DNA of 45,051 nt from NCBI GenBank assembly GCA_038040445.1, contig JBBPIG010000030.1, positions 1-45,051 of the forward strand, read 5' to 3'. Below the pieces are notes generated by a model that saw only the letters and a program-made list of their open reading frames with translations, was not told the origin of the DNA and made no database searches. This stretch comes from Acidobacteriota bacterium (GTDB taxonomy: Bacteria; Acidobacteriota; Blastocatellia; UBA7656). Made by a program: the position numbers and the translations under genes. Positions 8,810-45,051 of the stretch are shown in pieces; position 1 is the first letter of the stretch; the number at the start of each line of letters is the position of its first letter.

Positions 8810-10558
8810 GTGGTAACAAAGACGCATCCAGTGCCCAAGGCCGGCATGACGATCACCGCGAGTCAGTTGATGCTGGCGTTTGGCGCGCTCTTCGTATTGA
8901 ACCTCCTGCTGCGGGTGTTCTACATCCGGTACGACTTCGTGAATGGCGACGAAGGAGTGCGCGCATTGACGGCGACTCGAATGCTCGAAGGCGCGCGGCT
9001 GTACGCCGACGTGGTGACCGATAAGCCACCCGGCGCATCCTTGTTCTACGCGGCGGTCTTCGCGGTGTTTGGCCGCAGCATGAAGGCCGTGCACGCGGCA
9101 GCGATCGTTTGGAACTTCGCGACTTCCTTCGTTGTCTACCTGATAGCCGCGCGTTTCTACAATAAGCGAATAGGCCTTTGGGCAATGCTGTTTTTTGTCT
9201 ACTTCAGCACGAACTATTTCACGCAGGACATGATGGCCGCGAATACCGAGCTTCTGATGGCGCTCCCATATGCAGCCGCGTTCTACTTTTTCATTCTCGG
9301 CAATGCCAGGTACGTCGAGAAGGGAGAAAGCGCGAGCCTGGCGCCTTCTACTGCTGCTGCTTTGGTCGCCGCGGGATTGTTGAGTGGGCTCGCGGCAATG
9401 TTCAAGCAGATTGGAGTACTCAATCTTGGGTTCTTCGCGCTTTATCAGGGTGTCGCTGCTTGGAGAACGGTGCGAACTAACGAGGGTACTACCTCGTTGG
9501 GAGCTTTCTTCGGGCGTGTGTTTCTTCGTCTTTCGTTAGTCGGTGTTGGATTCGCGCTGGTGCTGGCGGCGTTGGTCGTGTGGCTCAAGTCAAGTGGAGC
9601 CCTCGGCGATTTCTGGCGGAACGGCATCGTTCTGAACATGTTTTACATAGACTCCGAACCGTTTGGTTTGTGGATGAAGTTCATGCTCGGCCGCGGCTTG
9701 GGCTACGTGTTCTTCAACGCGACGCTTTGGCTGCTTGCAGCCTGGGCGGTGTGGCGCTCAGCCAGGCAACTAACCAGGCGTGGAAAAGATGCGGGCTATG
9801 AAGCGGGGCTTGAGCGGTGCGATGTTACGGTAGCTGTCTGGGCTTTGGTGTCGCTGGTCGGGGTTGTAATGAGCGGGCGGTTTTACGGTCACTACTTCAT
9901 ACCGGCGCTGCCTGCGCTTTCGTTGCTCGCAGCGCGTGGATCGAATCTCCTCGCTGAAGCGCTGATCAGGCCAGCCCATAGACGAAAGACGCAGGCGGGA
10001 GTCGCTGCGTTGGCTCTGCTCTTCTTACCCGGCTTGTTCCGGTGTCATCACCGCACCGCCGTGCTGGCTTACGAAACCGTTACGGGAACACGCACACGCT
10101 GGAGCGGAAACTGGGGAATGACCAAGCGTGAGCAAGAAGCCGAGGTCGTCTCCGATTTTGTGCGCGCCGGAATCCCGGCTGGCGAACCGCTGTACATCTG
10201 GGGTTACGCACACGACGTTTTCTGGCGCACGGGCTGCCGGCCTGCATCGCGCTACCTGACGCCGTACTACATAGACGGCCGCTTCGCTGACGCCGAAGCC
10301 ACAGTGCCGGCATCGGGCCAGGAGTTTAGACGCGAGGCGGCAGCTAATCTGCTCGAGGACCTTCGCCGCAACAGGCCGCGTTTGATACTCGATGTTGAAG
10401 GCGGCTTCAAGGCGCTACCTCACGCTGAGCTGGTTGAGTTCATCGAGAAGAATTATCGCGATCAAGGAAGCGCCGGGCCTGATGCTTCGCGCCCGTTTCG
10501 GGTGTTGGAACTCAACGACGATGGGGAAAAGGATGAGGACGTGGAAGGACGGAGCTAG
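8810..10558 (+). CDS. GT39/ArnT-like membrane glycosyltransferase
   Basis: The protein has about 582 residues with many transmembrane segments. After TM1 comes YDFVNGDEGVRALTATRMLEG and then DKPPGASLFYAAVFAVFG, the pattern of GT39/PMT-type enzymes, with an acidic DE in the first periplasmic loop and a KPP motif. These transfer sugars from polyprenyl-phosphate donors onto lipids or proteins on the outer face of the inner membrane. The soluble C-terminal domain is short (WGYAHDVFWRTGCRP, YIDGRF). I chose GTG 8810 because GAGGAG lies four bases upstream; the open frame runs back to 8747, and ATG 8846 is an alternative. No lipid or polysaccharide cluster surrounds it. Confidence 0.78.
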   Translation: MVTKTHPVPKAGMTITASQLMLAFGALFVLNLLLRVFYIRYDFVNGDEGVRALTATRMLEGARLYADVVTDKPPGASLFYAAVFAVFGRSMKAVHAAAIVWNFATSFVVYLIAARFYNKRIGLWAMLFFVYFSTNYFTQDMMAANTELLMALPYAAAFYFFILGNARYVEKGESASLAPSTAAALVAAGLLSGLAAMFKQIGVLNLGFFALYQGVAAWRTVRTNEGTTSLGAFFGRVFLRLSLVGVGFALVLAALVVWLKSSGALGDFWRNGIVLNMFYIDSEPFGLWMKFMLGRGLGYVFFNATLWLLAAWAVWRSARQLTRRGKDAGYEAGLERCDVTVAVWALVSLVGVVMSGRFYGHYFIPALPALSLLAARGSNLLAEALIRPAHRRKTQAGVAALALLFLPGLFRCHHRTAVLAYETVTGTRTRWSGNWGMTKREQEAEVVSDFVRAGIPAGEPLYIWGYAHDVFWRTGCRPASRYLTPYYIDGRFADAEATVPASGQEFRREAAANLLEDLRRNRPRLILDVEGGFKALPHAELVEFIEKNYRDQGSAGPDASRPFRVLELNDDGEKDEDVEGRS

Positions 10559-42695: not shown

Positions 42696-42969
42696 CTAGC
42701 AGGCTGCTGAAAAAGTCTCTTTTCAGGACGGGCGCATATTTGGACTGCGGCGGCGTCTTTTCTTTGCCGCCGCTTTTGCTGTTTGATCGGACGACAGAAA
42801 GCGCCGCCGACGCACTGAGGGCGGCGCAGCCCAAATAAACGCGCTTCGGAGATCATCCCAGGCGTAAACGCGCTGGGCTAGTGAAAAAGCGAATCGAAAT
42901 GGCCGGCCACTCGAAGGCTCCAATACGCTCGCAACAGCATGCGCGTTTAGTCTTTCAGCAGCCTGCTAG
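42696..42969. mobile_element. MITE-like element with 17-bp inverted ends between lnt and prfB
   Basis: CTAGCAGGCTGCTGAAA (42696-42712) and its exact reverse complement TTTCAGCAGCCTGCTAG (42953-42969) bound a 274-base segment without a gene. If the outer CTAG is a 4-bp target duplication, the inverted end proper is CAGGCTGCTGAAA; CTAG-type targets and CAGGCTG-type ends resemble those of IS5-like elements. The interior has a GCGGCGG...CCGCCGC stem near 42747-42775. The right CTAG supplies the lnt stop codon. Between prfB and the element (42540-42695) only a weak TACAAT-type -10 box is seen. Confidence 0.75.
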
Positions 42970-44828
42970 GAGTCAATCCTGAGCTTGCTCTTTCTCTTCC
43001 GCCACGCGTCCCCAATCGCTGCGACCAACAGCAACGCGCTCAGCACAGCGCAAGCGATCACGAACACGTCACCATGACGAGTGTAGAAAGTTGAACCGTC
43101 GCCGCGCGCTTCATTCTCGGTTTTGATCTTCCAGGTTCGAGTCGCAGTCTCGAACATCGGGGTCTCACCGTGCACGATGCCGTAGCGATCCACTCGCGCC
43201 GAAACCCCGGAGTTCGTTGCGCGAATCAACTCGACGTTGTTCTCGACCGCGCGAAATATCGCTGTCGTCAGCATCTGCTTCGGAGCCGACGTAGGACCAA
43301 ACCACGCCTCGTTGGACATCTGCACAAGCGCCGCCGCGCCGCCGCTTCGCATCCTCCGCGCCAGGTCCGGCCTGGTAGTCTCGAAGCAAATCAACGTTCC
43401 CAGCTTCGCGCCCGCGGCTTCGGCCAGGGTCACGCTATTGCCCGGAGTTAGATCGCCAACCAGAGCCTTGACGTGACGCATGAACGGAATCCACTTTCGC
43501 GCGGGTATGTACTCGCCGAACGGAACCAGCGCGTTCTTGTGGTACTCGGTGATCTTTTCTCCCGTTGGTGATATGAGCAGCGCGCTGTTGTATTGGGCTT
43601 CATTCGGCCCCGCGGTTTCGGAGAAGCCCCACGCGTTCATCAGCAGATAGACTCGGTTGCGCCGGGTGAACTCCGCGAGCCTGTGCTGAAGAGCCAGGTC
43701 GCGGTCGTACTCGAAGCTCATAGTCGACTCGGGCCAGATTACCAGATCGATGCTGGTGGCTTTCTCGGTTGCAGAACCGGGAGCGCCGTTCGAAGCCGCG
43801 TCTTTGGTGTTTGCCTGAATCGCTTGTTCGGAGAGGGAGATGTGGCGCAGTAACATCTGCTCCACAAACTTCGGATCGTCCCATGGGCCATCGACTGGAA
43901 CGTTCGGCTGTACGACCGCAACTGAAACCGACCCCGTTTCCTCGACCGCCGGCCGCAACGATTCGCCGTACAACACTGCCGCTATCGCGATCACGCCCCC
44001 GGCGGTGAGCACGATGATCCCACGCCTGCGCTCGAGGTAAACCACCGCGTACACCAACGCGGTGCTTGCAGCCGCCATGATCGCGCTCACCAGGTAGACG
44101 CCGCCCAGTCGAGCCACCTGGATCACTGCCGGTTGGAACGCCTGCGAGTAACCGAGCGGGTTCCAACCCATACCTGTCACCTGAAGCCGCAGCCATTCAC
44201 TCGCCGCCCACAACACGGGGGCGGCCAATAACGACCAGCCGCCGAAACGCTTGATCGTGAGCGCCAGCGTTGCCGCAAACACGCCGGTGAACAAACCCAC
44301 CGTCGCCGAGAAGAGAATCAGAATCAGGTAGCACAGCCACAGCGGTATTTCCCCGTAGTTGTGCATCGAGTAGGTCACCCAGTGCGACGAGCCGGCGTAG
44401 AAGATCGTTCCGGTCACCGAGCCGAGAAGCAGCGAACGCCAGAACCTTCGCTCGCGCACGACTGCCATGATCAGCGGTGCGGTCCCCACCCAGCCCAGCG
44501 ACCACAGGTTCCAATCCGGAAATGCCAATACCAGGAGCAGTCCCGAGAAGATTGCTAGCGACAGGTTGCTGATGAAAGGAGCTGATTGCTGGTAGGGAAG
44601 TACCTTTGCAACTCGATAGCGCGCGGCGAGCAGGTCCTCGCGTGCGTAGACGGGAGGAACGGCTTCTTCGGAATGGCGAACGCGGGAAAAGGTCGAGGAT
44701 CGAGGATCGAGGATCGAAGATCGAGGATCGAGGATTGAGGATCGAGGATCGAAGATCGAGGACAAAGGATCCAGGATCGAGGATCGCCGACTGAGAATCG
44801 AGGATCGAAACGCCTGGTGTGGATTCAT
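42966..44828 (-). CDS. lnt: Apolipoprotein N-acyltransferase
   Basis: The ~620-residue inner-membrane enzyme adds the third acyl chain to lipoproteins. About six N-terminal TM segments (ISNLSLAIFSGLLLVLAFPD onwards, WLRLQVTGMGWNPLGYSQAF) precede a periplasmic nitrilase domain with triad E367 (VIWPESTMS), K431 (YHKNALVPFGEYIP) and C481 (LICFETTRP), ending with a last TM and basic tail. It is ~100 residues longer than E. coli Lnt. The extra N terminus, from ATG 44828 (AAGGA upstream), is a repeated SSILDPR peptide encoded by a heptanucleotide array; no later ATG, GTG or TTG exists in frame before TM1. The TAG stop lies in the border of the MITE. Confidence 0.88.
   Translation of the reverse strand: MNPHQAFRSSILSRRSSILDPLSSIFDPRSSILDPRSSILDPRSSTFSRVRHSEEAVPPVYAREDLLAARYRVAKVLPYQQSAPFISNLSLAIFSGLLLVLAFPDWNLWSLGWVGTAPLIMAVVRERRFWRSLLLGSVTGTIFYAGSSHWVTYSMHNYGEIPLWLCYLILILFSATVGLFTGVFAATLALTIKRFGGWSLLAAPVLWAASEWLRLQVTGMGWNPLGYSQAFQPAVIQVARLGGVYLVSAIMAAASTALVYAVVYLERRRGIIVLTAGGVIAIAAVLYGESLRPAVEETGSVSVAVVQPNVPVDGPWDDPKFVEQMLLRHISLSEQAIQANTKDAASNGAPGSATEKATSIDLVIWPESTMSFEYDRDLALQHRLAEFTRRNRVYLLMNAWGFSETAGPNEAQYNSALLISPTGEKITEYHKNALVPFGEYIPARKWIPFMRHVKALVGDLTPGNSVTLAEAAGAKLGTLICFETTRPDLARRMRSGGAAALVQMSNEAWFGPTSAPKQMLTTAIFRAVENNVELIRATNSGVSARVDRYGIVHGETPMFETATRTWKIKTENEARGDGSTFYTRHGDVFVIACAVLSALLLVAAIGDAWRKRKSKLRIDS
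44692..44806. repeat. Heptanucleotide tandem array inside the 5' end of lnt
   Basis: About 16 imperfect copies of a 7-base unit, on the plus strand GAGGATC with GAAGATC variants (coding strand GATCCTC). Because 7 is not a multiple of 3, three units make seven codons, encoding the repeating peptide SSILDPR in the N-terminal tail of Lnt. Confidence 0.85.
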
Positions 44829-44882
44829 CAGTTCCTTGTCAGTAGCGGCGGACGGATTCAAGCAACTGCTTTTGCTTATCAC

Positions 44883-45051
44883 GATCGATCTTCTATCCTC
44901 GAACTTCTATCCTCGAACTTCTATCCTCGATCTTCTATCCTCGATCTTCTATCCTCTATCCTCGATCTTCTATCCTCGATCCTCTATCCTCGATCTTCTA
45001 TCCTCGATCTTCTATCCTCGATCTTCTATCCTCGATCTTCTATCCTCGATC
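44883..45051. repeat. Heptanucleotide tandem array in inverse orientation upstream of lnt (runs off the window)
   Basis: About 24 copies of a related 7-base unit, alternating TATCCTC and GATCTTC (a 14-base higher-order unit), on the plus strand. It is the inverse complement type of the array at 44692-44806 and continues past the window end. The 76 bases between the two arrays contain the lnt start codon. Confidence 0.85.

Follow-up and report, generated by a model that had tools for sequence, protein, structure and literature searches.

The two heptamer arrays that flank the start codon of lnt probably make up a single copy, lacking a gene, of a dispersed selfish hairpin element with inverted arms, akin to the intervening sequences (IVS) of rRNA but lying outside rRNA. 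In fuller copies of this element, two opposed tandem arrays enclose a small gene for a 23S rRNA intervening-sequence protein (IVP/S23, PF05635). The arm unit is free in sequence and usually measures 7 bp, in some instances 8-9 bp; read along either strand, the G-rich arm precedes the other. Gene-less copies lie at gene junctions, are gained or lost between sister species and have units in common with IVP elements of their own genome. The lnt-type element would be a relative, outside rRNA, of the 23S rRNA IVS, and the data suggest one origin for heptamer repeats that were previously described separately. A reading centred on lnt is not the main story.

The window, that is the whole 45,051-nucleotide stretch that was analysed, is C30:1-45051 of an 82-kb contig of the source genome (G000). 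The following features lie at its right-hand end:

42966..44828, minus strand: lnt, apolipoprotein N-acyltransferase (620 aa when started at the loop ATG)
44692..44808, minus strand: C-rich 3' arm in the lnt sense, (GATCCTC)n, putative Lnt N-terminal tail RSSILDPRSSIL
44809..44884, minus strand: loop sequence of 76 bases with the Shine-Dalgarno AAGGA and the lnt ATG (44828)
44885..45051, minus strand: G-rich 5' arm in the lnt sense, (GAGGATAGAAGATC)n, extending past the window

TRF reports period 7 at 44693-44808 (16.6 copies, plus-strand unit GAGGATC) and period 14 (2x7) at 44885-45051, where the plus-strand unit TATCCTCGATCTTC reads as GAGGATAGAAGATC in the lnt sense; these are the top-scoring TRF arrays of the whole window. 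Units at lnt are GAGGATC, GAGGATA and GAAGATC, all free of the runs of at least three G expected in each unit of Xanthomonas-type G-quadruplex heptamers. Opposed heptamer arrays around the lnt ATG had been claimed in the original prediction and are confirmed: aligned to its reverse-complemented partner, one arm gives 91 identities, 20 mismatches and 0 gaps over 111 bp (82%), with 76 bases between the arms. Opposed arrays of units of about 7 bp with the G-rich arm first are also what surrounds the IVP genes described below. As terminal inverted repeats, the arms (91/111 bp complementary) form a predicted stem. In the predicted RNA fold, 123 pairs span the ATG, itself unpaired; for the portion of the lnt leader 3' of the assembly gap, the MFE is -209.1 as against -151.6 +/- 6.1 for 60 dinucleotide shuffles (z -9.5); the long imperfect hairpin with the ATG in its loop, also proposed earlier, thus stands as a folding prediction.

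The second array continues beyond 45051. Directly after the window come 100 N, a scaffold gap inside the second array (C30 45052-45151, identical to L012 1053-1152), past which the array resumes, reaches about 45275 and adjoins the lipA stop codon. Scaffold N gaps fall inside long arrays at C30 45052-45151, at L048 about 10309-10397 and in L013, so that array lengths in the source assembly are unreliable. Opposed GGGTTCA-type arrays are also present on the other side of lipA (L012 2177-2340).

The lnt gene itself is identified by matches to TIGR00546, PF20154 and PF00795. Four in-frame start codons precede the conserved part of Lnt: GTG 44882 (which, if used, would give 638 aa), TTG 44861, ATG 44828 and TTG 44765, the last within the array. 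Because no further in-frame start lies between TTG 44765 and the conserved RHSEEAV, translation of Lnt very probably runs through at least part of the C-rich arm, which is without stops in any of its three frames. Translation of this array as an N-terminal tail, part of the earlier reading, is accordingly rated very likely from the in-frame starts and from the Shine-Dalgarno and ATGAATC kept in the sister species. Its frame arithmetic was also correct: gain or loss of one or two heptamer units truncates Lnt to 88-212 aa, and a change of three units keeps the frame. As at phase-variable SSR loci, the repeat lies in the reading frame and the number of units shifts it.

These properties could be taken to mean a regulatory hairpin specific to lnt, combined with a heptamer contingency locus that phase-varies Lnt. 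The frame arithmetic and the predicted hairpin fit such an account, as does the start codon, which lies in the loop in G000 and in G001, a genome of the same genus, and by reading also in G004 and G002. It is rated very unlikely all the same. G001 has a GATC pair whose loop holds the Shine-Dalgarno and ATGAATC, and contig JADGNW010000213.1 (Blastocatellia MAG) has a lipA-lnt sequence identical to that of G001. Other genera have other units: G004 a GCGGATT pair, G002 the right arm with a degenerate left arm (an IVP element of this genome, L185, also has GCGGATT arms) and G006 GATGATT arms with the likely start 3' of them. Two of the seven family genomes, G005 and G003, have no array at this junction, and lnt is without inner stops in 7/7. 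The architecture is not particular to lnt either, since similar opposed pairs occur at many junctions and around IVP genes; an explanation of the arrangement through lnt is not supported.

Across the source genome, heptamer arrays are common. A 600-kb sample (the first 200 kb each of C1, C2 and C3) contains 39 segments of period 7 and one of all other periods from 4 to 13 together; periods 16, 18 and 24 give one segment each, multiples of 7 aside. A single shuffle of 400 kb of sequence, itself chosen in part for array hits, contained no segment with a period of 4 to 24. A family-blind detector finds 27 opposed pairs in the 600 kb (about 45 per Mb), and they lie at gene junctions. The units can be grouped into a dozen or so families, among them GAGGATC, GGGTTCA, GGTTTCT, GTCCGTA, GCCGATT, GTGATGC, GAGAATT, GGCAGAA, GGAAAAA and GACGGAC, a list drawn in part from stretches fetched for having hits. 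Polarity is nearly uniform: the left arm is G-rich in 55/60 gene-less pairs (24/27 in G000, 22/23 in G001, 6/6 in G004, 3/3 in G005 and 0/1 in G006), and the remaining 5/60, all of the CATTT type, form one T-rich family that opposes the rule. Same-family pairs stand in the library's plus-then-minus order in 42/43 instances, leaving aside two neighbours in the opposite order; these two were considered as pairs and rejected, as they belong to different families and flank tRNA genes (tRNA-SeC, tRNA-Thr). Heptamer pairs are also interspersed in a cluster of 26 tRNA genes (L015 1458-6902).

The link to IVP was evident at C1:34968-35515, an insertion present in G000 only, which encloses a PF05635 gene (E 1.1e-25) between GAGGATC/GAGGATA arms, the unit found at lnt. 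XCC0516 of Xanthomonas campestris (2GSC) is a solved homologue of IVP (E 2.6e-20). The seven family genomes hold 49 PF05635 matches, 46 of them above the cut-off, and 30 of the 49 were fetched, including one below it. Taking inverted arms as z > 6 in 320-base flanks, 28 of these 30 loci have them, and at 24 a heptamer array was detected on either side; runs of N lie in the frame of the two loci that fail. Matches occur in 78 of 149 genomes drawn across the phylum. Among 29 further loci from these (best hit per genome, best genomes first), 26 have inverted arms, of which 19 are a detected heptamer pair and most of the other seven have period 8 or 9. When both sets were rerun with uniform flanks, inverted arms were found at 54/59 loci, one locus dropping below z 6 and one rising above it; in 53 of these the G-rich arm is the left one, and one is a tie. 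Named plasmids gave 23 records matching IVP, and 10 of the 12 fetched have inverted arms (nine cyanobacterial plasmids and one of Azospirillum lipoferum). The locus on the Nostoc sp. HK-01 plasmid has no inverted arms, and that on the Picosynechococcus plasmid reaches z 5.0 with period 8. Some cyanobacterial plasmid IVP genes (L248, L250, L255) are flanked by cas6 and cas4 or by cas10 and a Cmr3-type gene.

Size-matched control genes of 90-220 aa have inverted arms in 6/288 instances: the C1 IVP gene, two nucleases of PF13366, two transposases of PF01797 and one further gene. When 1090 genes were screened, 14 had inverted flanks, and those whose flanks are not self-hairpins are four: IVP, two PF13366 genes and one PF01797 gene. 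None of 20 loci (of the 30 in the family) has an Rfam match at the gathering threshold, and a location in rRNA was found for none of these; the lnt copy is at the junction of lipA with lnt, not inside a 23S rRNA gene.

Fuller copies have an IVP/S23 ORF, and the 76-base lnt loop has none. One GATC pair in G001 encloses an internally deleted IVP, a remnant of 26 codons (IESFRDLDVYQLGLRE against IRSFRDLDVYRLALTE), which was seen in an alignment and then tested (0/2000 shuffles). By tblastn, IVP remnants were not found in loops other than as matches derived from the arms. The lnt loop has no reliable similarity to the interior of the GATC IVP element from which it might derive (p 0.036 at one end and 0.40 at the other, uncorrected; not significant when several tests are allowed for).

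Association of gene-less arms with IVP genes can be followed at the level of whole genomes. The five above-cut-off IVPs of G000 have five arm units (GGGTTCA, GAGGATC, GACG type, GAGAATT and GCCGATT), each of which is also a gene-less family in that genome; 73 of 178 gene-less arms match one of the five and 105 do not. Over G000, G001, G004 and G005, comparing gene-less arms with IVP arms gives a match in 119/1325 comparisons within a genome and in 112/6370 with foreign genomes (odds ratio 5.5; comparisons share arms, so that a p-value is not to be taken literally). Period-7 segments number 1 in 402 kb from 11 genomes without IVP and 27 in 526 kb from 13 with at least seven matches (p 0.0005 over genomes, kinship ignored); all sixteen sampled IVP genomes together have 91 in 1454 kb (p 0.0004, kinship ignored). 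Other periods differ less with IVP presence (7 vs 13, p 0.08). G002 has 5 IVP matches, yet no opposed pair in 80 kb. Similarity of IVP proteins tracks that of their arms (Mantel r 0.27, p 0.0002, n 51, with proteins cut to the Pfam stretch and leaving out five loci at z <= 6 as well as those with stops or short stretches). Loops resemble one another in 4/15 pairs of the GTCC family, 6/15 of GTTT and 3/21 of GTTC, where 0.3-0.4 would be expected; some copies, at least, therefore spread with arm, loop and arm together as a unit.

These results bear on another account, by which the arrays grew in place through polymerase slippage and gained an opposed partner via hairpin template-switching, with no mobile element involved and with IVP genes merely at similar places. 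Unit numbers do differ strongly between arms and species, different units are possible at one junction, GATC arms vary independently, and a length of 7 nt has been proposed to suit polymerase slippage (Mrazek 2007, as cited in the available part of PMC4679880). Slippage would nonetheless have to produce a polarity that is fixed in many families, loops that are similar within families, arms on both sides of an IVP gene of 300-400 bp and a dependence of arrays on the presence of IVP, and it is considered improbable.

Turnover between sister species bears on a further alternative. Thirty collinear gaps were compared between G000 and G001, and 13 have an array in one genome or both. The unit is common to both at some of the 13 (lnt, C1 22266, L013 3113), and at about half the array is in one species only. 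Both arms are in another unit at the C9 gap (GTCC vs GTGA), and a second such switch, GAAA vs GCAG, occurs at C1 38568, outside the list of 30. At C1:34968, the single clear presence/absence site, no target-site duplication was recognised by eye against G001. Elsewhere, the counterpart in G000 (C1 35989-36124) of a GATC pair of G001 is a hairpin made with CTTTGTG repeats, the right arm of which is read into a lipoprotein signal peptide. Further translated arms were noted by reading: the gene after the IVP element of G000 begins with MRSSILDPRSSVPRLYG, as against MNSRPRLYG in G001, and the signal peptide of a G001 lipoprotein runs through an arm.

Whatever their origin, the pairs could be kept by selection as intercistronic RNA hairpins that act in termination, RNase III processing or mRNA stability, as REP sequences do in operons. 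Array distribution among gaps of G000, with genes called by our own script, is compatible with this: arrays are present in 40/323 tandem, 6/58 convergent and 2/63 divergent gaps (2/63 divergent vs 46/381 tandem or convergent, one-sided p 0.02). Such depletion would also be expected if insertions harm promoters. At C1 68035 (L149), a GCAAATT pair in G000 has as its counterpart in G001 a long perfect palindrome, unrelated and without repeats, and lipA-lnt junctions with arms fold with a predicted z of -4.2 to -9.5 in five genomes. On the other hand, two relatives do without the lipA-lnt array, several pairs are in one sister species only, and base-level covariation of the arms is absent in two of the three families tested (GATC, 14 loci, p 0.59; GTCC, 7 loci, p 0.65), being present in GTTC (12 loci, p 0.002), where composite arms are mirrored. 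Selection for the hairpin is rated an unlikely explanation, and the preferred reading remains that of a dispersed element. Mirrored composite arms, with GGTTCAG outside and GGTTTCT inside, can be seen at L061 9397-9615, L063 10322-10479 and 15497-15648, and L014 521-755 and 6788-6972.

At lipA-lnt, the element would place its G-rich arm after the lipA stop, provide a Shine-Dalgarno and ATG from its loop and leave an open C-rich arm to become the Lnt tail. Insertion into an operon may be tolerated in this way, both neighbours staying readable, because several of the G-rich units put a stop into each frame, whereas this C-rich arm is open throughout: arrays of GAGGATA, GAGGATT and GAAGATA have stops in every frame, and (GATCCTC)n in none. 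This pattern cannot be the whole reason for tolerance, since other families, e.g. GGGTTCA, have their stops on the opposite strand (by reading). The IVP, or its RNA, may take part in spreading and recognise its own arm motif. IVP resembles the DGR protein Avd, and a route through RNA is therefore conceivable. The hairpin in the mRNA would be a likely substrate of RNase III, as expected from the IVS of Coxiella, for which cleavage by this enzyme in vitro is described in the available part of PMC4990558. Cutting of the stem in the lnt leader would part the ATG from lnt, so that the imperfect stem presumably either escapes cleavage or lowers lnt expression.

Several known systems are comparable. 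According to the available part of PMC4990558, 23S rRNA IVS with an S23/IVP ORF are known from Coxiella, Leptospira and others and have been called a selfish element, in the Coxiella IVS heptameric repeats were noted immediately ahead of the S23p ORF, and S23/IVP proteins have a solved structure and no known function. The elements described here likewise have terminal inverted repeats and, in fuller copies, an ORF of the IVP family in the loop that these enclose. Unlike the IVS, which lie inside 23S rRNA and are excised by RNase III, they are at junctions of protein genes, their arms are two-sided tandem arrays of many units and gene-less copies are abundant (compared with the IVS as described in the same part of PMC4990558). 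The available text of PMC4692102 reports convergent GGGAATC pairs for Xanthomonas (70 in Xcc, 75 in Xac) and, for Nostoc, repeats of GGGGA(T/C)T; they too are intergenic and convergent, with the G-rich strand first and position kept between species. They differ in having one unit per genome and were interpreted as G-quadruplex formers, and in that available text neither S23 nor XCC0516 nor intervening sequences are named, and no link to IVP is drawn. Heptamer repeats are also in print for Beggiatoaceae (TAACTGA) and cyanobacteria; the Maribeggiatoa genome has 169 direct sets of TAACTGA and one inverted repeat (PMC4679880, available part). Like the arrays described here, STRR and TAACTGA repeats are intergenic heptamer arrays near starts, with stops in all frames on one strand, but they are described as direct arrays (PMC4679880, same part).

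Taken further, the data may tentatively, and with somewhat less than even confidence, be read as defining a class of selfish elements whose ends are set by period (7, sometimes 8-9) and polarity, not by sequence. Each IVP lineage would have its own unit as an address, gene-less copies would be driven in trans, and members would include rRNA IVS, cyanobacterial STRR (which are heptamer repeats), the convergent heptamers of Xanthomonas and the lnt arrays; such an element would rewrite the ends of operon genes through new stops, new starts and translated arms. We know of no accepted cause for the excess of heptamer repeats in bacteria. A tie between IVP and heptamers makes both testable, through recognition of its own arms and spreading by IVP. 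Odd N-termini on conserved proteins, e.g. (RSSILDP)n, would be explained as translated arms of an element, which matters for gene annotation, and lnt would be a case of selfish DNA providing start and stop codons within operons. Within the open-licence literature, no paper was found to connect IVP with dispersed heptamer pairs, and none beyond that on the Coxiella IVS to link IVP or PF13366 with repeats.

Gene-less palindromic copies with a few gene-bearing ones at intergenic sites are also typical of REP/RAYT systems and MITEs, and the elements described here are similar in this respect. REP/RAYT systems combine a Y1 transposase, the RAYT, with a fixed palindrome, the REP, whereas the enclosed gene here is IVP and the arms are tandem arrays; the gene-bearing GATC copy encodes PF05635 and no Y1 transposase. 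Inverted arms are not exclusive to IVP, because PF13366 (PD-(D/E)XK) genes, which we take to be those of GxxExxY proteins, carry arms of their own at 16 of 24 tested loci from 27 matches (L188-L212, genomes G000 and G002-G006). Where measurable, these arms have period 8-9, e.g. with ACGCAGAG and GCGGATGCG units. Could PF13366 genes and their arms be a parallel type of element? Two PF01797 (IS200-like) genes with inverted or palindromic flanks, at L096 15941-16505 and L069 9977-10573, have arms that are not heptamer arrays and are probably RAYTs with REP-like palindromes.
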